Positions 1 through 34,352 of a DNA stretch of 64,000 nt are shown one piece after another (position 1 is the stretch's first letter; each line of letters starts with the position of its first letter). A model generated the notes under the pieces. That model was not told the DNA's origin. It ran no database searches and saw only the letters and a program-made list of their open reading frames with translations. Both the position numbers and the translations under genes were made by a program. Location of the stretch: the NCBI GenBank assembly GCA_025093555.1, contig JAIWNF010000003.1, forward strand, positions 248,001 to 312,000, given 5' to 3'. This DNA comes from Circinella umbellata (taxonomy: Eukaryota; Mucoromycota; Mucoromycetes; Mucorales; Lichtheimiaceae).

Positions 1-812
1 TCACTAAAGGCAACATTTTCAGTTAAAGATCATCCGTATGCGCGTAGTTCAAGAAAACGCTGTTTATTGTTTTATTGATTGTTATACGTATATTCTACTT
101 GGTTTTAGGGATACTCAATTGTTCTGTTGTGTTTTTGGTATTTGTAGAGTAGTAGTTGACTTACATTAATAATGACCGTACGTAACTGCAATAATAAATT
201 GCAACACCAGCTCTTTGCCATCCGAACTTCTTATCAGTTTCGCTGTTGTCGTTTACAACAAAAGGTATAATGTTGCCTAGCTACGTATATACTTAAATAA
301 ATTGTATATGTACGTGCACCACCTTCAAGTTAGGAAGAGAAAGGACCCCTTTTTTGTACGTAGTTATATAATCAATTCAAACATCACACCTCCTCCCTAG
401 CTACTGTTTGCATATCTTGCTGTTGGGTTAATTAAAATCTGTCAGATCGTTATGCCATGGTAACCAGTAATTAATTTTCTATCTTAGACTTTACATTACT
501 TTATATAAACATGTAAATTGTTATCAAGAGACGACAATATATTTTTAAAACGATAAAAGAAAAACAATTATTTATATTATTAATAATAAAATAAAAATAC
601 AGAAAGAAATTTTTCTAAGCAAAAACACATTATAATAAAATATTTGTTATAAAAAAATGCAATGCTCTTGGCCGCAACTTTTTCTTTAAAAAGCTACGTG
701 GACAGGTCCTACCACGTGGAGGTGGCATTGCGTCAGGACCCGACCTCCCCAGTGAATCACTGAATCATCGGCCCCCTTTACTATCCGAAGATAGTGAAGA
801 GTATAAATATAC

Positions 813-1178
813 TTACCTTTTATCGTTCGTGGTATCGTTCGTGGTATCGTTCGTCGCATCGTTCGTGATATCGTTCGTGGTATCGTTCGTGGTATCGTTC
901 GTGGTATCGTTCGTCGCATCGTTCGTGGTATCGTTCGTGGTATCGTTCGTGGTATCGTTCGTGGTATCGTTCGTCGCATCGTTCGTCGCATCGTTCGTCG
1001 CATCGTTCGTCGCATCGTTCGTGGTATCGTTCGTGGTATCGTTCGTGGTATCGTTCGTGGTATCGTTCGTGGTATCGTTCGTGGTATCGTTCGTCGCATC
1101 GTTCGTGATATCGTTCGTCGCATCGTTCGTGGTATCGTTCGTCGCATCGTTCGTGGTATCGTTCGTCGCGTCGTTCAT
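813..1178 (-). CDS. Possible (NDxT)n repeat protein, left arm
   Basis: From the ATG at 1178 the frame encodes Met, 29 Asn-Asp-X-Thr units, then Asn-Asp-Lys-Arg and a stop (121 aa). The end coincides with a strong splice donor (AAAAG then GTAAGTATA), so this may be an internal exon of a longer gene. The repeat would be highly acidic and rich in Asn-X-Thr sequons, but no signal peptide is visible. A coding role is not established; the block could be a non-coding repeat. The same unit is repeated in the right arm. Confidence 0.25.
   Translation of the reverse strand: MNDATNDTTNDATNDTTNDATNDITNDATNDTTNDTTNDTTNDTTNDTTNDTTNDATNDATNDATNDATNDTTNDTTNDTTNDTTNDATNDTTNDTTNDTTNDITNDATNDTTNDTTNDKR
828..1175 (-). 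repeat. 12-bp tandem array, 29 copies (left arm)
   Basis: Twenty-nine direct copies of a 12-bp unit that on the minus strand reads as codons for Asn-Asp-X-Thr, with X being Thr, Ala or Ile. Variation is almost confined to the X codon (acc, gcg, atc). Because 12 is a multiple of 3 the array stays open in several frames on both strands, so the long overlapping open frames here are not evidence of coding by themselves. Confidence 0.95.
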
Positions 1179-2103
1179 CGTCCTCGCGTGATTGCTGCGG
1201 CGCTTCGTTAAAAGAATAAACAATAAGAGTAAGAAATAAAGCCCGTCAAAAGTAATAGCATGTATAAAAAAAACAATAGATAGAGGGAGAAAATGTAGGG
1301 AAAAATAGATGCATGATCTATTGGAGGAGAGGAGAAAAAAAAGTAGTACTTACCGGGTTGGTTGTTGCTGGTGTAAAGAAAGAAGAAGAAAGAAAAAGAA
1401 AAAGAAAGACCCTTTTTATGCTTTTTTTTTTTAACCCGAAGTTATGGGAACATCCTTTAGCATGCATCAATGCCTTTGTATAGCTTACTTTTTCATATGA
1501 TGCAGGCGAGTAAAAACAAAGTGAAGAAGAAAAAAGGGAATAATAGTTTTAGCGATCTTGCCATGGTGACACACACACATGCTATGTTTTATTTTGCATA
1601 AAGATCCGGTTAAAAAACGTTTACCTCACATTATTTAGGAATCTAGACCTTTAGTCGCGCAGGACAATAAAATGAACTTGCGTTCTTTTTTTCTACTTTT
1701 AACTGAACATTGTTTTCAAATCTACTCCCCCACCCCCACCCCTCTTTTTTTTTTTTTGCACGACGCGTTTATCGTTTAAAAAATAAATAATGATACGTAT
1801 GCTGGCCCTCTGCGTAAGAAAACATAATGTACCTTTTCGTCTTTGATGTAGACTCATGAAGCAAGATCTTTTATATTGCTATAAAAAGAATATATTGTTA
1901 AAGTAACTCTGTTTCAAAATCGTTTGTATAGGTTGCTGGTGTATTGAATGAGACGCTACATGGTAAAAATAACGAGTACGTACGTACGTAAACTTATATT
2001 ATATTAGTATATATCTAATTTTACTTGAACTAGTATACTCTTATTATGAATAAAATCTAGGATTGGTATGTATGAATATCAAATTTTATAGTTGTATTAT
2101 GGA

Positions 2104-3767
2104 TGTTGCAAATAAGACTAATAAATGAGCTAATGAATAAAAAAAAACTCCCATACGCTCGTACTTTTATTTGGTTAAAATTGAAGGGTTAATTTATTAA
2201 AACAATGTCTAATTGAGCGTTTTTTTAAAAGCTCTAGTTGGCTAAACTTTTTTTTCTTTTTGCAACTGTCAAAGTTATCAGTAAAGATGAAAGTGATTGT
2301 TATTGAGGTAATGAAAATTTATGCAGCCTTTTTTCAAGGGTCTAAAAGGCACAAGATAAAAAAAATTACTCGATGACAATCTTTTTTACATGGTGGCCCG
2401 TGCGTACAGCTGTCTTATTGATGATTGAAAACTCTGTTCGCATTTTTTTGAACTTATCAAATTGGGATATTAATTATATTACCAAGCGAGTTTTTTTTAA
2501 CAAGTAATCCAATGCACAGTGTTCAATTTCTTTTAAGAATTATGATAATCAGAGCTATATATTATATAACATATCGATTATATATATTTAAATGATAAAA
2601 ATTCAATCGGTACATATATATAGCTCGTAGGCTTTAAAAACTAGTGTTGAGAAGATTGTGCGGTTAGCGTTGTCATGAAAACATTGCTCATAAAAGTTCA
2701 TTTATCTAAATGAGTTTTAACCCTAGCTTTCATAGTATTTTTGTTGCTTTCAATAATAATATGATCAGTACTAAAGATAGCTGATTACAAATGTATACAG
2801 CATAGCCGATCCCCGGTTTTTGCACTCCCCTCTTAAAATCGAAAAACTCGAATTCCACAACTTTTTTTACGGAAGTGTCACAAAACTCTTAGTAACCCTG
2901 CAACCCGCAAATTACATTTATTGGGGGAAATTTATAATGTATTCAATACTTTGATAAAAAAAAAGTAAATATTTATCCACATAGTAGTATAGAGTGAAGC
3001 GTTCAATGTGTGATTATACTTGGTATAAAATTATAAATAAAGAAGGAATAAAAATAAAGAAAAAATAATACACTATTTGTAGTTGTATTTGGACAATAAA
3101 AATGATATGAAGATAGATAGAAATTTGGGTTGTGGGAGTTCTTATATTCAGGAATGTTACGTCTGAATCCACAAAAGAGAAATCTTATAATGAGTTTGAG
3201 AGACTTTACGTATGCTCAAAGAAAACTACTTCCATTGGCAGGTCAATTATTAAGTTGTTAAAAGTCTACGTAAAAGATTTAAAAGGTATATACGTAAAGA
3301 TGAAACTGAAGAACTTTATTTGAAATGACTGTGGGATATTTATACGTACTACTACGTAGCAATGCCAGAAATGTGTCATTGTGTGATCCAATAAGATCAA
3401 GTAATAAGACAGCTTGTGACACTGTAATTATAATACTAATAATATCAATAATGATAATGTTGGTATAAATTTTTTTTTGACTTTTATACGTTACAATACA
3501 ATAGACCGGAGCCATCACCTATAAAGATTAAAACTGTGAGATATCCACTCCCACCATATTAAAAACACCGCGCGCGCTCCGCAACGTTTTTGAAAGAATT
3601 TCAAAATTGAAATAGCCGGGGGTCTACTGTGTATACAAGGTTCACGTCTTAAGAAGCATGCTAGCTATGGGAGAAAGTTCTGTTTGAAATTGTAAGTGTT
3701 TATGTACGTTACCATGAATGAATGACCAATTTTTCTTCATTTTAAGAGTCAAAGTCTTCAAAGTCTT
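2104..3767. other. Spacer of inverted repeat, with DNA-transposon-like ends
   Basis: Single-copy AT-rich spacer between the arms. GTATAC occurs at 2793-2798 and 3631-3636. Just inside are imperfect inverted ends: CAGCATAGCC..CCCCGG on the left, and CAGTAGACCCCCGGCTA on the reverse strand of the right. This is the general appearance of a Tc1/mariner/pogo-type non-autonomous element of about 840 bp. No transposase frame was seen. The short open frames inside (for example 3132-3323) look like chance. Confidence 0.4.
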
Positions 3768-4692
3768 TCCATAATACAACTATAAAATTTGATATTCATA
3801 CATACCAATCCAAGATTTTATTCATAATAAGAGTATACTAGTTCAAGTAAAATTAGATATATACTAATATAATATAAGTTTACGTACGTACGTACTCGTT
3901 ATTTTTACCATGTAGCGTCTCATTCAATACACCAGCAACCTATACAAACGATTTTGAAACAGAGTTACTTTAACAATATATTCTTTTTATAGCAATATAA
4001 AAGATCTTGCTTCATGAGTCTACATCAAAGACGAAAAGGTACATTATGTTTTCTTACGCAGAGGGCCAGCATACGTATCATTATTTATTTTTTAAACGAT
4101 AAACGCGTCGTGCAAAAAAAAAAAAAGAGGGGTGGGGGTGGGGGAGTAGATTTGAAAACAATGTTCAGTTAAAAGTAGAAAAAAAGAACGCAAGTTCATT
4201 TTATTGTCCTGCGCGACTAAAGGTCTAGATTCCTAAATAATGTGAGGTAAACGTTTTTTAACCGGATCTTTATGCAAAATAAAACATAGCATGTGTGTGT
4301 GTCACCATGGCAAGATCGCTAAAACTATTATTCCCTTTTTTCTTCTTCACTTTGTTTTTACTCGCCTGCATCATATGAAAAAGTAAGCTATACAAAGGCA
4401 TTGATGCATGCTAAAGGATGTTCCCATAACTTCGGGTTAAAAAAAAAAAGCATAAAAAGGGTCTTTCTTTTTCTTTTTCTTTCTTCTTCTTTCTTTACAC
4501 CAGCAACAACCAACCCGGTAAGTACTACTTTTTTTTCTCCTCTCCTCCAATAGATCATGCATCTATTTTTCCCTACATTTTCTCCCTCTATCTATTGTTT
4601 TTTTTATACATGCTATTACTTTTGACGGGCTTTATTTCTTACTCTTATTGTTTATTCTTTTAACGAAGCGCCGCAGCAATCACGCGAGGACG

Positions 4693-4902
4693 ATGAACGA
4701 CGCGACGAACGATACCACGAACGATGCGACGAACGATACCACGAACGATGCGACGAACGATATCACGAACGATACCACGAACGATACCACGAACGATGCG
4801 ACGAACGATACCACGAACGATACCACGAACGATACCACGAACGATATCACGAACGATGCGACGAACGATACCACGAACGATACCACGAACGATAAAAGGT
4901 AA
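4693..4902 (+). CDS. Possible (NDxT)n repeat protein, right arm
   Basis: Mirror copy of the left-arm frame: an ATG, 16 Asn-Asp-X-Thr units, Asn-Asp-Lys-Arg and a stop (69 aa). Upstream are a TATA-like motif and a pyrimidine-rich tract (4451-4500), and a canonical donor at about 4519. A CAG at 4675-4677 could act as acceptor just before the ATG. A second donor follows the array. The two copies would be transcribed outward in opposite directions from the spacer. Function unknown. Confidence 0.25.
   Translation: MNDATNDTTNDATNDTTNDATNDITNDTTNDTTNDATNDTTNDTTNDTTNDITNDATNDTTNDTTNDKR
4696..4887 (+). repeat. 12-bp tandem array, 16 copies (right arm)
   Basis: Sixteen copies of the same Asn-Asp-X-Thr unit as the left-arm array. 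The first six units and the last five units have the same X order as the left copy, so the 13-unit difference lies inside the array. This is the pattern expected from slippage or unequal exchange after the arms were formed. Confidence 0.95.
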
Positions 4903-5690
4903 GTATATTTATACTCTTCACTATCTTCGGATAGTAAAGGGGGCCGATGATTCAGTGATTCACTGGGGAGGTCGGGTCCTGACGCAATGCCACCTCCACG
5001 TGGTAGGACCTGTCCACGTAGCTTTTTAAAGAAAAAGTTGCGGCCAAGAGCATTGCATTTTTTTATAACAAATATTTTATTATAATGTGTTTTTGCTTAG
5101 AAAAATTTCTTTCTGTATTTTTATTTTATTATTAATAATATAAATAATTGTTTTTCTTTTATCGTTTTAAAAATATATTGTCGTCTCTTGATAACAATTT
5201 ACATGTTTATATAAAGTAATGTAAAGTCTAAGATAGAAAATTAATTACTGGTTACCATGGCATAACGATCTGACAGATTTTAATTAACCCAACAGCAAGA
5301 TATGCAAACAGTAGCTAGGGAGGAGGTGTGATGTTTGAATTGATTATATAACTACGTACAAAAAAGGGGTCCTTTCTCTTCCTAACTTGAAGGTGGTGCA
5401 CGTACATATACAATTTATTTAAGTATATACGTAGCTAGGTAACATTATACCTTTTGTTGTAAACGACAACAGCGAAACTGATAAGAAGTTCGGATGGCAA
5501 AGAGCTGGTGTTGCAATTTATTATTGCAGTTACGTACGGTCATTATTAATGTAAGTCAACTACTACTCTACAAATACCAAAAACACAACAGAACAATTGA
5601 GTATCCCTAAAACCAAGTAGAATATACGTATAACAATCAATAAAACAATAAACAGCGTTTTCTTGAACTACGCGCATACGGATGATCTTT

Positions 5691-6535
5691 TTAAAAAAAA
5701 CTGCAAAACCAGCACTGATACTTTTTCAGAAGCTTTTGCTGTGGCTCATCATTATTGGTATAAACATAAAAATGGCAACACACTTCCAATGAAAAGTAAT
5801 AAATCTTGGCTATAACAAAATAATCTCTAACGTAAGTATATCTTTTGATAAAAAAAAACATTATAAGGGCAAAATGCACTGACATTGGTATAAATTCAGC
5901 GTGCTTATGTTTCACAACATCAGGTAATTACTTTAAGATCCATCTACTGTTATCATCATATTTTCAACAAAAATATGACGTTACAATCAAACGTGGACTA
6001 TGTATATTAAACTGGCCATGTAAGAAAATAAAGTTCACTCATAAATGAGTTAGACCATCTATTAAGATTTTTGCTTCGTTTTATTAACTGAAAAGTCATT
6101 GCGTTGCATTTAATAAAAAGTCTTTGCAATCATGGTTGAAAATTCTTGTCATTTATAACTAAAAAAAACAATTCTTTTATAATTGGAATTTTTCCCTTTA
6201 TTGAAAAGAAAAATGTTCGGGTCACCACATCTCTTAATGTTCATGTACATTCCAAATTAATGTGAGAAAGTGAAGTGCCGTCTTAGATATTAAAAAACTG
6301 TCATGTATAAAATTTCTCAAAAAGAAAAAAAGGAAACCATTTCGCATATGCTGTAAGCAATACATCTATTATATATTATGTACACACTATGCATGATCGG
6401 GCAATTTCTTTCATTTTACAGTAGGATGTGAATCATTTTCCCAAAGTGTTTCAGATCCGTCATTGATATTGATCGCATGACAATGGGCTAATCCCTTTTT
6501 TTTTTTCGCTCCGATTAAACACACTTTCATCTTTT
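5691..6535. other. Intergenic, nothing recognised
   Basis: AT-rich sequence between the inverted repeat and the first gene. A T-rich tract at 6494-6504 lies just upstream of the ATG at 6536. No RNA gene or convincing coding frame was seen. Confidence 0.6.
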
Positions 6536-20579: not shown

Positions 20580-21227
20580 TCACTGCATAATTTTACAACC
20601 ATAAGTACTTTTAGCATCATCATAAGCATAACTATAAGCATCAGAACAACCTTCTTTGAATTTCATAGCATATTGACTAGCCTTACACTTGTTGGGATCA
20701 TTAAAATCACCAGTACAACAGTATTCATCTGTTTTAAACGCAGCACAGGCACTCATACAATTCCCCTTTTCAGTTTGTAATTCCTTGGGACAAGATGGAA
20801 GAGTAGAACAAGTAGGAGCACCACAGTCATATCCAGAACCAGCTTTCCCATCAGCTTTAATGCTTATAGGCAAATTAAAACCATCCACAAACGAAACATC
20901 ATAGAAATCATGGCCTTCATATCCTTTGAATAAGAACTCAGCAAGAGAGATAGCAGAACCATACTGATCACAATTGGATTCATCATGACGACAACCCCAA
21001 AAACGACCTGCCCAATTTCCATTGACCTTACAATCATTAGATGCACCAGCCGAAAGTTCTTGAGATGATTTTTCACCACCTGGACCATTAGTAAGTTTGT
21101 ATATATGAAGATCACTACTACAACTGTTTTTAATAGTAATAGTAACATCGCTAGAAGAAGAAGCAGGAGCAGCCAAAATAACGCCAGCGAAAGTCAGGAT
21201 GGAAAGAGTTTTGATAATGCTCAACAT
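20580..21227 (-). CDS. Thaumatin-like (PR-5 type) secreted protein 1, truncated C-terminus
   Basis: Intronless, 215 aa. A signal peptide (about residues 1-20, ending LAAPA) precedes a thaumatin fold with the family landmarks NWAGRFWGCR, SLAEF, DFYDVSFVDGFNLPI, CMSACAAF, YCCTG, and CSDAYSYAYDD near the C-terminus. It differs from the copy at 24297 at only about three residues up to STYGCK, then ends IMQ and a stop. The partner continues ATKYTLTFCP. The lost FCP Cys normally pairs with the N-terminal Cys in this family, so a disulphide is probably missing. A TATA-like CATATAAAAAAGGGG lies at 21276-21290 on the minus strand. Thaumatin-like proteins are secreted, with glucan-binding or antifungal roles in other organisms; the role here is unknown. 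Confidence 0.9.
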   Translation of the reverse strand: MLSIIKTLSILTFAGVILAAPASSSSDVTITIKNSCSSDLHIYKLTNGPGGEKSSQELSAGASNDCKVNGNWAGRFWGCRHDESNCDQYGSAISLAEFLFKGYEGHDFYDVSFVDGFNLPISIKADGKAGSGYDCGAPTCSTLPSCPKELQTEKGNCMSACAAFKTDEYCCTGDFNDPNKCKASQYAMKFKEGCSDAYSYAYDDAKSTYGCKIMQ

Positions 21228-21697
21228 GATTATTATAATTCAAAGGACTGAGCTACTAGATATAATGATACGTAAACCCCTTTTTTATATGATGATTATA
21301 TTTCGATAGCAACGTACCTGAACAACGCAGTGTTGAACGAATCATAAAAACAAAGACAGGTAGAAACTTACATCTCTCTCTCTCTCTTTTGGTTTTCTAA
21401 AATTCCATAATACAAATTGAGCTGTTTTACCTAAAAAAAATGAAAGAATTGCCTATTATCGGGTTGGTCTGAAGATGTATAACGAAATATGCTTGTTAAA
21501 AATTGAAACTTTCCATATAACAAAGATACAAGATAGGTTCAATTTTTTTGTAAACTAGTTTAATAACCTTTTATTATTTCAATAATATACTCTTAATGGT
21601 TACGTAAATGCTAGTTCAAATTACAGAGTGGAAAAGAAAGTAAATTACTTTTCTATGTAATTATGTTAAAAATAGCTACCATTTTCTATTTTAATTA
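21228..21697. other. Intergenic, thaumatin-like 1 promoter / OYE1 3' end
   Basis: Upstream of the thaumatin-like gene 1 (TATA-like element at 21276-21290 on the minus strand, followed by an AGGGG stress-element-like core) and downstream of the oxidoreductase that stops at 21698. A (TC)n tract lies at about 21372-21388. Confidence 0.4.
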
Positions 21698-23204: not shown

Positions 23205-24296
23205 TGCTCAGAAAAAAAGATTATTTACGTGAAGAAGAAAGGAAAAAAAAAAAGAGTGGAAAAAAGAGTCTTCTGATAAAAAATCATGCATCTACGTTAC
23301 AAAAATTCTTCACAAATGTCAGCAGACCCTGTGTTCAACCAGTTATTTTTTTTTTCACCATGTAAATAAAGTTTACTAGTAGTAGGCTTCTAATTATTTC
23401 GAGAAAGTAGTTTATAACATACGGATGTACTGAAAAAGTAAACTGGTTATGTTATACAATTTTTTTTATGTACAACCTATAAAGAGTTATAGTCTTGTGA
23501 CGGATGTGCGGTAAAAAAAAAAGAAAAGAAAAGAACCTGAATGCATTCATATTTTTTTGACAACGTCTTGCATGATATTCATCAACAAAATCATCATGGG
23601 TTATATAATATGTATATAAATGCAAGTAAACCCTTCCGCCTTTGCCATCAGATAATTTCTAAATCGAAAAATTCCATAAAAAGAAAAAATTTCTCGGCTT
23701 TCCCTTCAAAAATGAATTTATGGATTACTAAAATAACTTGTTAATAAGAAATATGATTTATTTATTATTATATTAAAACCAAGTAATATATTAAATAATT
23801 TTATAATATAGGTCTTGTGTTTACTTCTTGATGAATAAAAAGGAAAAGCAAAAGTGTGGAAAAAATTAGTATAACTTTTTTTCATAAGAAAGAAATAGAA
23901 AAAGCCTATATAATAACTTTTAAATAATATTACATTAGAGAATAGTGTATAAAAAAGCTATTTTTTCTATTTTATTTCTATTCGTACTAAAACGTTTTGT
24001 AAACAAATGAATAAAAAGTATTAAAGAGTAATAAACTCACGTATTTATAAATTTCAGTCAGAGCTGCATCAAGCATTATTAGATTTTCAGGAACATGTCC
24101 GTGGGGAACGGATATACTTTATATTACGCATCCCAAAGAGTGAAAGGGGGTAATAAAACATATAAAAAGACCATTTGAAAAGAAGAAAGAGGGGGCGGGG
24201 AGACTACATTAATCACATCATCTTTGGTCATCAATTTTCATTTCATTTCTTTTTCATTTAGTTTTTACGTACTCCTATCTCTTTCATATAATAATA
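23205..24296. promoter_or_regulatory. Divergent promoter region, OYE1 / thaumatin-like 2
   Basis: Intergenic DNA between two divergent genes. On the plus strand a TATA-like ACATATAAAAAGA lies at about 24158-24170. AGGGGG cores occur at about 24145 and 24190, resembling fungal stress-response elements (AGGGG). The element assignments are inferences from sequence only. Confidence 0.45.
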
Positions 24297-24965
24297 ATGT
24301 TGAGCATTATCAAAACTCTTTCCTTCCTGACTTTCGCTGGCGTGATCTTGGCTGCTCCTGCTTCTTCTTCTAGCGATGTTACTATTACTATTAGAAACAG
24401 TTGTAGTAGTGATCTTCATATATACAAACTTACTAATGGTCCAGGTGGTGAAAAATCATCTCAAGAACTTTCAGCTGGTGCATCTAATGACTGTAAGGTC
24501 AATGGAAATTGGGCAGGTCGTTTTTGGGGTTGCCGTCATGATGAATCCAACTGTGATCAGTATGGTTCTGCTGTCTCTCTTGCCGAGTTCTTATTCAAAG
24601 GATATGAAGGCCATGATTTCTATGATGTTTCATTTGTGGATGGTTTTAATTTGCCTATAAGCATTAAAGCTGATGGGAAGGCTGGTTCTGGATATGATTG
24701 TGGTGCTCCTACTTGTTCTACTCTTCCATCTTGTCCCAAGGAATTACAAACTGAAAAGGGAAATTGTATGAGTGCCTGTGCTGCGTTTAAAACAGATGAA
24801 TACTGTTGTACTGGTGATTTTAATGATCCCAACAAGTGTAAGGCTAGTCAATATGCCATGAAATTCAAAGAAGGTTGTTCTGATGCTTATAGTTATGCTT
24901 ATGATGATGCTAAAAGTACTTATGGTTGTAAGGCTACCAAATATACTCTTACTTTCTGCCCATAG
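24297..24965 (+). CDS. Thaumatin-like (PR-5 type) secreted protein 2
   Basis: Intronless, 222 aa, with an intact family C-terminus KYTLTFCP. A predicted signal peptide (about 1-20) is followed by about 15 Cys in the mature part. The conserved core blocks match copy 1: NWAGRFWGCR, FYDVSFVDGFNLPI, a Cys-rich domain with CMSACAAF and EYCCTGDF, then SYAYDDAKSTYGC. At DNA level the two genes are near-identical over about 630 bp and lie in inverted orientation 3.07 kb apart, which implies recent duplication or gene conversion. It is preceded by a TATA-like motif and AGGGGG cores. Secreted; a cell-wall or stress role is only an inference from the family. Confidence 0.93.
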   Translation: MLSIIKTLSFLTFAGVILAAPASSSSDVTITIRNSCSSDLHIYKLTNGPGGEKSSQELSAGASNDCKVNGNWAGRFWGCRHDESNCDQYGSAVSLAEFLFKGYEGHDFYDVSFVDGFNLPISIKADGKAGSGYDCGAPTCSTLPSCPKELQTEKGNCMSACAAFKTDEYCCTGDFNDPNKCKASQYAMKFKEGCSDAYSYAYDDAKSTYGCKATKYTLTFCP

Positions 24966-31516: not shown

Positions 31517-32935
31517 TTATGGATTATTATTCCTTACAAACATATCACATAAATGATCAATATCCTTTGTATATCCAGTCAGTAAATCCACAACTCGTAA
31601 GCCCCCAATTCTTTGTAATCCTGGTGTCAATGGAAAAAATTCAAGTTGTGTTTCTGTTGAACGATTTGCTGCCAATTCACCCAAATTCCTTGTACTCAAT
31701 CCGCTTAATAAAACAGACCCCATCTTAGTTTTGACAGCTGATAAAACCAATTTCATATGCTGTGATGAATGGTTTCGAATCCTTATACCCAATTGGAAAG
31801 GTGTTTCCAAAATTACATCCGCTGGTTCACCCTTCTTTAACCAAAATGGTTGAACTTCAACATCATCTAACAAGGGTGCTTTTCGTGTCAATTGTGACGT
31901 TTGTAATCGTCCAAGATCGCCCATTGATGATCGCCACACAATATCCAATTTTCCTAATGCATTAGTCGTACGAGCGATTCTGTCATTTTGTGGATCTTTA
32001 GGGGTCAACATATATAAATATTGTCGTACATCTTGTGGATGAATAAAATTATTGCCAAATACCAACTTATTCTTTTTTTGCTGCTCTTGATCATTATTCT
32101 CGTTATTGTTGTTGTCATCATCATTATCACTATTATTATGACTACTAATAATCCTATTCAAATCTTGAAAATCAAAGTGTTCTGATGGGTCAAATTTCAT
32201 ACGTTCAAGAAACATGGGACCAGCAGATACATTTTGAAGTTGTGCTTCAAGAAATACGCGTCCATCAATCATGTTATTGACTTTGGTCTTTACAGCTAAT
32301 GGATTAGATACTTGAAACTTGTAAAATTTACGGAAATGACGTCGCCGTCCATCATCTGTCAAGTACTGAACAGTACATACAAGTATATGAACTCCTAATT
32401 CCTTGATTTCATGGGCTACTGTCACTGAAATAGTTGTATCCAATTGTTCATATTTGGTTTCACTTAAGTTGAATCGTTGAGACGATGTTTGTAGTTCCAC
32501 TTTGACGTTCACTTGATGCGCACCAGTAGGGGGCGATTGTTGATAAGGGTTTTGCTGCTGCTGTTGTTGTTGATACTGGTCTCCTTCATTGTTAATGCTG
32601 ATCAATGTAGTAAATGTTTCACCGAGATAAATATTACCAAATGACGAAGGTAGTTTCAATAACTGACTTAAACCAAAGTCGCGAATGTGAAGTTCATTGG
32701 GGAGTTCAATAGGATGAGATGCAGTGAGATCGGAAATGTTGAGTGATTCTAAACCTTCAACGAGTGGTGGATAAGATGAAGATTCATAGTAAACAGGTGC
32801 GCTAGTTGCCATGAGAGGACGCGATAAACGCATGACTTTAAGTGATAGTAGATGAGGAGCTTGTCCGTCATCTTGACTTGAAGGCGATAAAGGAGTTTGA
32901 TGTGGTGGAGAGAGTTGTGAAACTTGTGCAGACAT
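31517..32935 (-). CDS. TRAPP complex subunit 13 (DUF974)
   Basis: Single exon, 472 aa, slightly longer than animal TRAPPC13. After a Ser/Pro/Gln-rich start come the family blocks HLLSLKVMRLSRPL, LPSSFGNIYLGETFTTLISI (immunoglobulin-like N-domain), EIKELGVHILVCTVQY, RRRHFRKFYKFQVSNPLAVKTK and QNVSAGPMFLERMKFD. Near the end is LDIVWRSSMGDLGRLQTSQL. A poly-Gln insert (about 122-129) and an Asn/Asp-rich insert (about 267-285) are local expansions. TRAPPC13 is a peripheral TRAPP component acting in membrane trafficking at the Golgi. Its stop is 320 bp from the start of the HAM1-like gene on the same strand. Confidence 0.9.
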   Translation of the reverse strand: MSAQVSQLSPPHQTPLSPSSQDDGQAPHLLSLKVMRLSRPLMATSAPVYYESSSYPPLVEGLESLNISDLTASHPIELPNELHIRDFGLSQLLKLPSSFGNIYLGETFTTLISINNEGDQYQQQQQQQNPYQQSPPTGAHQVNVKVELQTSSQRFNLSETKYEQLDTTISVTVAHEIKELGVHILVCTVQYLTDDGRRRHFRKFYKFQVSNPLAVKTKVNNMIDGRVFLEAQLQNVSAGPMFLERMKFDPSEHFDFQDLNRIISSHNNSDNDDDNNNNENNDQEQQKKNKLVFGNNFIHPQDVRQYLYMLTPKDPQNDRIARTTNALGKLDIVWRSSMGDLGRLQTSQLTRKAPLLDDVEVQPFWLKKGEPADVILETPFQLGIRIRNHSSQHMKLVLSAVKTKMGSVLLSGLSTRNLGELAANRSTETQLEFFPLTPGLQRIGGLRVVDLLTGYTKDIDHLCDMFVRNNNP

Positions 32936-34352
32936 ATGAAAGAGTAGATATAGAAAGGGGTAAAAAAAAATTGTGGTAGTTTGAACTGTCTGTTTTGTTA
33001 TATGTACAAGCTGAGATAATAAGTGTAATACACCTTATATAGCTATACGAAGTAGCTAAATTTTTATTACCAAAAAAAAGTTAATTGAGATATTATATAT
33101 CCCATAGAAATGCCATTAACACCACACATAAAAAATTTGTTCATATGTTTTTTAGACAGGTCTTCAAGATCCACTTTGCACCCAATTCTTATAATAGTTA
33201 CTGCAATTGCTCTTCCCTTTATTCATAGTACCCTGTAAATCAATAATATAAATGGTAAATATATTAAATAGAGATAATAATGGTACTATATTTAAAATAA
33301 GCAAATATATAAAAGCACAAAAAGAAAAGTACTTCAGGTAGAAAGAGATAATGATATATCATATTTAATACCTACAAGCCTTCTCAATCTCTTCACCCAT
33401 ACGTATGGAATTGCCATACACTTCCCATTCCTAGAATGAACGAATCAATCCCCCGAATTTTTCAGAAGCAGTGCAGGGCACGGAGAGGCCAGTTTTGAAG
33501 GCAAAGCAGCTAACATACTAACCGCTTCTATAGAAATCGTGCGAATAACTTGGAAAAAATGAACATACTATTGTTTATTGAAAATGTTAATTTAGATTAC
33601 ACATATTTGATTTCGATATAATAATGCTAGAACTTTTGTTTAAAACGTCTGCATTTTTTTTTTTGCTTGGCGGTATAACTGAGTGCTTTGGGTGGTCGGA
33701 TATAGGTAGCTTGTTGTTATTCGGTGTGTGCCCATAGTTGTCGTTAGAGCTGATGATGACAATAAAGATAATGATTGATCAGACGTCGAATACTTTGAAT
33801 GGATTGAATAAAATGAGAGTATACACACAGTACGTAGCATAGATGATATTATAACATAAAAATAAACACGATACTGTACGTATCATGTTGATGTCTTATC
33901 CACTTTGTATAAAGCTGGTGTCAGTTTGTATACTGATCTTCTTTCATTTATTATTTTAACTGTAACTGAAGATAGCTTACAGATTTAAAAAATTACAGCT
34001 TATGGCATTAACTTCAACACAGTAATGTTAAACAGAATACCGGCAGCATTCCGAAAAACGAAACTAGAATGTAGTATGTAGTCGTTTAATTTTCTTTTTC
34101 TTTATAAAAGCATTATATTAATAAAACTATTTTATCGACAAGTCCTTTTCGGTTATATACTCAACTCTCTGACCACGGCCTCAAACGTGGAGGTGGAGGG
34201 GAATGTCACGTTAAAATGGGAGCAATATAAAAACAAATTCAGCTAGCATGGGCGACAGCATTTGGACAAAGGTTGTTTTTAGGCGACGAAGCTTTCTGAG
34301 GTAGAGCTTTAGTTAATGGCTTTTTCATTTTGTCCCTCTTTATTTCTCGATC
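32936..34352. other. Long intergenic region
   Basis: No gene is supported. The frame at 33640-33840 is short and low-quality. A TATA-like AATATAAAAAC at about 34225 precedes the decayed gene starting at 34353. No tRNA or 5S-like sequence was recognised in the GC-richer patch at 33440-33540. Confidence 0.45.

Follow-up and report, generated by a model that had tools for sequence, protein, structure and literature searches.

The most familiar palindromes that correct themselves are those of sex chromosomes, plastids and certain centromeres, the palindromes of the primate Y chromosome and the inverted repeats of plastids being gene-converting palindromes; long inverted arms are also found in foldback, or long-terminal-inverted-repeat (long-TIR), DNA transposons, in which they hold tandem arrays of variable length. 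Here, we describe an inverted repeat at the left end of a 64,000-nucleotide stretch of the genome of Circinella umbellata (contig JAIWNF010000003.1, positions 248,001 to 312,000 of the forward strand), the whole of which is called the window below. We consider it probable that this locus is a member of an old, dispersed, non-coding family of palindromic repeats in this Mucorales fungus, the arms of which exchange sequence and each carry the layout of a hepatitis delta virus (HDV)-like ribozyme facing outward.

As in the gene-converting palindromes of primate Y chromosomes and plastids, and as in the Candida tropicalis centromeres according to the available portion of PMC7292649, long arms surround a unique spacer, are nearly identical within the locus and exchange sequence; here, by contrast, the palindromes form a dispersed, multi-locus, non-coding family, each arm holds a ribozyme and a minisatellite, the arms diverge between loci, and two pairs lie on one contig. 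As for the ribozyme, 230 examples of fungal HDV variants have been published from 26 fungi, in varied gene contexts; the available portion of that report gives as their features an extra C between P2 and P3, typically a C-G at the cleavage site and a loop-E P4 (PMC5640933). The layout predicted here has the same HDV-like fold and the same extra C, whereas G1 stands opposite a U, and the same portion of PMC5640933 describes no palindromic repeat. Palindromes that undergo conversion are already known, and so are HDV-like ribozymes of fungi; a dispersed non-coding family that combines the two was not found in the full-text literature searched, most subscription papers being outside it.

The palindrome and its relatives in the genome

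The genome was searched as a whole (50.8 Mb in 210 contigs), the window lying on the contig labelled C134. A gene at 31520-33034 on the minus strand agrees with the placement in Mucorales: its closest named match, at 79% identity, is from Fennellomyces sp. T-0311, with mostly other Mucorales next in line, while an ENA protein without a name comes closer, at 93%. Four other loci are named below: C127a (C127:441-448 kb, L011), C127b (C127:704-710 kb, L014), C164 (L012) and C10 (L013). The parts of the palindrome in the window, none of them assigned to a strand, are as follows:

25..2103, left palindrome arm (differs from the right arm by 2 substitutions and a single array gap)
3768..5690, right palindrome arm (alignment to the left arm)
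2104..3767, spacer (relatives at other loci; inverted relative to the outer flanks in C127a)
821..1166, 12-bp minisatellite, 28.8 copies (Tandem Repeats Finder, TRF)
4705..4894, 12-bp minisatellite, 15.8 copies (TRF)
2995..3503, separate dispersed repeat inside the spacer (several tens of other genomic places)
5735..6354, right outer flank (relatives: right flank of C127a, flanks at C1 and C136)

When 25-2103 is aligned globally with 3768-5690 in reverse complement, 1,921 positions match, two and no more are substituted (275/5440 and 2059/3812), and a single gap of 156 bases (13 x 12) falls within the 12-bp array. The alignment confirmed what an earlier note on this DNA had read by eye, namely a near-perfect inverted repeat with these two substitutions, in which the remaining length difference between the arms comes from the tandem array. 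A chance origin is excluded, because two kilobases match at 99.9%.

The same note had proposed a search for other copies of the arm; once run, it revealed a dispersed family, which includes one-armed and broken copies. At least 40 matches to the outer arm (25-820), at least 44 to the inner arm (1192-2103) and at least 61 to the spacer (2104-3767) were listed; these numbers count aligned pieces and are lower bounds, and many of the spacer matches come from the repeat at about 2995-3503. The latter, about 0.5 kb long with fairly constant ends and also present in the outer flank of L019, is perhaps a solo long terminal repeat (LTR) or a short interspersed element (SINE). Five loci (the window, C127a, C127b, C164 and C10) have arm pairs with a ribozyme in each arm and account for 10 of the 33 ribozyme copies found in the genome; among the 20 family stretches compared, two are the window itself (L009 and L010), four are the other pairs, and 14 are single, broken or partial copies. 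In the window, C164 and C127b, the inner end of the arms falls on the site homologous to 2103/3768; in C10, it is no more than about 50 bases away, and in C127a, where the alignment was bounded by preset limits, it coincides with that site or is close to it. The outer arm ends vary from locus to locus, and relatives of both outer flanks of the window occur at other loci. Judged by these comparisons, the inverted repeat is neither unique nor recent.

Dispersed copies, whose long inverted arms include tandem arrays that vary in length, also recall a non-autonomous foldback-type DNA transposon, whose arms would stay identical via the transposition cycle and for which the ribozyme would be a passenger; moreover, the left outer end falls at the same place, just past the ribozyme, in both C164 and C127b. 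We nevertheless find this reading unlikely: unlike in foldback or long-TIR transposons, there are no constant termini, the outer arm ends differing between loci; C164 and C127b have flanks in common well beyond the arms; most copies have a single arm; and no transposase was recognised in the eight short flanking frames tested. The classic form of the long-TIR element that the earlier note had envisaged is, for want of a recognised transposase and of like outer ends between loci, not shown. Target-site duplications were not established, the arm ends being variable and the junctions inspected by eye, and no full empty site was found. C129 was examined as such a site and rejected: a relative of the C164 left flank ends there at the arm boundary, but the sequence beyond resembles none of the five loci compared.

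More generally, no transposase or conserved coding frame was recognised in the family by a Pfam scan aimed at eight short flank and array frames. It gave nothing for one array frame, and a MACPF_b-prism match in one of seven short outer-flank frames (16.6 bits for a cut-off of 26, E 0.007) was taken as chance. A 2-kb module in the outer flank of L019, some 1.7-3.8 kb beyond the arm, also occurs alone at eight other places with 91-94% identity; no coding frame was recognised in it. Six ribozyme copies lie along C156 (at 434, 647, 729, 789, 950 and 1055 kb), and for five of them no palindrome partner was detected. The unit is more likely to be selfish, as a non-autonomous repeat, than to serve the host. 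That the unit might be a homogenised-inverted-repeat centromere, given its similar size and its homogenised arms around a core (compare Candida tropicalis, available portion of PMC7292649), is extremely improbable: contig C127 has two intact pairs, some 260 kb from each other, rather than one per chromosome, and remnants are scattered across many contigs.

Exchange between the arms

Gaps apart, the two arms of a locus differ by 2 substitutions in 1,923 sites in the window, 15 in 2,518 in C127a, 3 in 1,799 in C164, 7 in 1,927 in C127b and 109 in 3,163 in C10; the corresponding gaps, 1, 8, 3, 12 and 40 in number, mostly reflect array length. Within a locus, the arms differ by 0.1-3.5%, against 3.7-13.1% for the inner arms of different loci. 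When 19 inner arms (10 of them paired, 9 single) are placed in a maximum-likelihood tree, left and right arms are sisters at all five loci, with a support of 100/100 in four of them and 91/99 in C127a.

C164 and C127b have both flanks and the spacer in common (20 differences at 599 sites for the left flank, 52 at 1,608 for the right flank and 60 at 1,276 for the spacer), and the palindrome therefore predates their separation. Their outer flanks are 3.3% diverged, yet the arms are only 0.2-0.4% apart within each locus; as the palindrome is older than the split, about 60 differences per arm pair would be expected without exchange, where 3 and 7 are observed. These comparisons support the view that the arms are homogenised by exchange, gene conversion holding them near-identical. 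The active gene conversion put forward in the earlier note is in this way borne out, the arms being alike within five loci, diverged between loci and older than the duplication by which C164 and C127b came to share their flanks.

An arm identity of 99.9% could also come from an assembly fold-back or from an inverted duplication that took place here recently, and a recent inverted copy of an outer flank does seem to be present at C156. The same arms, however, occur at four other loci with other sequence, a unique spacer and flanks, and both flanks and the spacer of the window are found in C127a at 14-16% substitution (79 differences at 506 sites for the left flank, 80 at 544 for the right flank and 169 at 1,185 for the spacer), so that the palindrome must be old. 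We hold this explanation to be highly improbable; the very recent formation considered in the earlier note is not supported at this locus, and its assembly fold-back is unlikely, the same architecture being found at loci of different sequence with spacers and flanks of their own. The note did not foresee the family, the turned spacer or the ribozyme.

The C127a spacer aligns with that of the window only when inverted (1,185 sites, versus 58 in the same orientation), while the flanks are collinear. The spacer is, then, found in both orientations relative to the flanks between these two paralogous loci, which would fit a crossover between the arms.

An outer flank is repeated in inverted orientation, with a single ribozyme arm, at C156 (99.9%) and C139 (97%). 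The former is a second palindrome (L025, 174-2878 and 7296-10000; C156:429-439 kb), identical at 99.9% over 2,705 bases, and seems to have arisen when the outer flank of the element itself was copied in inverted orientation; it suggests that a new inverted flank copy can also arise recently. Elsewhere in the window, two open frames at 20593-21237 and 24287-24931 form an inverted pair with 97.5% identity over 645 bases; by eye, we take them to be thaumatin-like.

The predicted HDV-like ribozyme of each arm

Each arm is predicted to carry an HDV-like ribozyme that faces outward and would cleave itself once transcribed; its parts are as follows:

658..741, minus strand, predicted HDV-like ribozyme of the left arm, with predicted cleavage just 5' of G741 (RF02682 match, strict descriptor, alignments)
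4974..5057, plus strand, predicted HDV-like ribozyme of the right arm, a mirror copy, with the presumed catalytic C at 5044 (descriptor match, alignment)
742..796, minus strand, conserved ribozyme leader with two hairpins (alignments)
4919..4973, plus strand, the same conserved leader in the right arm (alignments)

A cmscan of 25-3800 placed RF02682 at 741-660 on the minus strand (24.7 bits, E 0.13). In the alignment of the ribozyme copies, P1 is GGGUCCU/AGGRCCU (7 bp), with G1 facing U, and P2 is GCAAUGC/GCAUUGC, followed by the extra C; P3 is ACC/GGU (3 bp), with a 7-nt L3, P4 is variable in length, and GGC-CAAGA stands ahead of the 3' strand of P2. The nested double pseudoknot, with P1, P2, P3 and P4 in order, has 95.6% of its cells paired, versus 32-45% when slid. 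Among 25 aligned copies, 21 were counted, after leaving out two identical second arms as well as L021 and L027, which are without the 3' strand of P2; the active-site C before that strand (GGC-NRA) and the G at +1 are invariant in all 21. The 55-nt leader has its helices 93% and 87% paired, and its GGAGGU is complementary to the ACCUCC of P3/L3, a pairing that might delay folding.

Within the 64-kb window, a strict descriptor matches the two mirrored sites and no other; at the other loci (198.2 kb), it picks up 17 of 23 family copies and nothing besides, and in Markov sequence (768 kb) it has no match. A 24-nt core pattern occurs at 32 places in the genome with up to 3 mismatches (24 exact, and 5, 1 and 2 with one, two and three mismatches, respectively) and its reverse at none; the exact core is absent from the IMG/VR contigs and the bacterial and archaeal genome collection searched. 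All 4 RF02682 matches listed genome-wide (E 0.23-2.3) fall within the family, 61 of 1,218 candidates having been scored and the window's own copy not being among those listed. Within the outer arm, conservation is highest at the ribozyme: over 14 loci, the top 57-column conservation window begins at about 4962, and identity is 0.97-0.98 in the core versus 0.85 further out. Other RNA searches of the window gave no tRNA or tmRNA, and a SNORD97 match at 1470-1642 (E 3.9) was taken as chance.

Non-LTR retroelements of the R2 and L1Tc/SIDER type, and their non-autonomous derivatives, are known to begin with HDV-like ribozymes at the 5' end, as far as the available portions of PMC4035085, PMC3774820 and PMC3414825 go; the ribozymes treated in the first of these likewise lie in dispersed repeats. 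That the family consists of remnants of such elements is nonetheless very unlikely, as none of the 33 copies begins at G1 (query position 66), 31 starting from position 1-6, one from 24 and one from 80; among 150 listed reverse-transcriptase matches (of 345 candidates), none lies within 10 kb of a ribozyme, the nearest being 10.9 kb away on C167; and the ribozyme is internal to the palindrome.

One has to keep in mind a number of points that speak against a family of exchanging palindromes with a ribozyme in each arm. As regards exchange, the inner arms of C127a differ by 1.3%, not far under the between-locus minimum of 3.7%; the 190-bp ribozyme stretch (the short outer arm) of C164 and C127b does not discriminate; and the spacer orientation could be an arbitrary choice of the assembler. 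As regards the ribozyme, the RF02682 score is far under the gathering score of 44, there is no Rfam match at curated thresholds anywhere in the window, and 8 of 14 control genomes also match RF02682 at E <= 10. The descriptor was written after the fold had been seen and is failed by 6 of 23 family copies at other loci, while L021, L027 and L030 look broken. Covariation in the helices is not above that of shuffled controls (2 pairs with double changes, reached in 126 of 500 shuffles), because the copies are too alike, and the same holds for covariation in the leader. Finally, other stretches of the unit are conserved too (0.90 at 4204-4253, versus 0.91-0.92 at 4954-5053).

A splice-site-like motif, the minisatellite and a proposed outward RNA

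Between the minisatellite and the leader, each arm contains a further element on the ribozyme strand:

811..820, minus strand, 5' splice-site-like motif AAAG/GTAAGT, 75 nt upstream of G741
4895..4904, plus strand, the same motif in the right arm (read from sequence; strand count)

Of 23 copies, 20 have AAAGGTRAGT upstream on the strand of the ribozyme and none has it on the opposite strand (L027 and L030 left out), for a background of 1 per 116.6 kb of strand (window 5701-64000). In the window, 75 nt separate the GT of the motif from G1, and the minisatellite sits upstream of the motif.

Units of 12 bp make up this array in the window and eight other loci, while 17-bp units (GTGAGTGTGTTTGAAAG) occupy the same place in six loci (L013, L015, L016, L017, L022 and L026), the 17-mer appearing as longer compound units in one C10 arm; neither array is present in L020, L021, L027, L028 or the examined part of L030. 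The two arrays are unrelated, and the 17-bp units often have GTGAGT after GAAAG. All frames of the 12-mer are open, but a conserved protein is unlikely, given that six other loci have the unrelated 17-mer there instead. Copy numbers in the two arms are 28.8/15.8, 15.8/29.8, 27.8/12.8 and 43.4/18.9 for the four 12-mer pairs (L010, L011, L012 and L014), a roughly two-fold difference in array length despite homogenised surrounding arm sequence.

Because of the strand of the ribozyme and of the splice-site motif, a transcript of the unit would be directed outward. RNA made from the palindrome centre would run through the minisatellite and then the 5' splice site, and the ribozyme would cut it 75 nt beyond that site, freeing the upstream RNA; such an RNA would have an exon end fit for splicing and, in the intron, the ribozyme by which it is cut. 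A bolder proposal, which we regard as speculative and rather unlikely, is that of a new RNA-processing palindromic element, made of head-to-head transcription units with an intronic ribozyme that competes with splicing just behind an often-repeated 5' splice site, and with arms that repair each other to keep the ribozyme working over long periods; it would be either an unrecognised selfish class that needs both palindrome and ribozyme or a domesticated family of non-coding RNAs in Mucorales.

With a dispersed non-coding family in a fungus, a single genome provides several palindromes that differ in age and have dated flanks, by which conversion and inversion become measurable. The mirrored ribozymes are relevant to the question, still open, of which role HDV-like ribozymes play in cellular genomes. 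As each conversion event rewrites one arm from the other, the palindrome could also preserve a working ribozyme, and the family may be a case where the architecture of DNA itself preserves a catalytic RNA.

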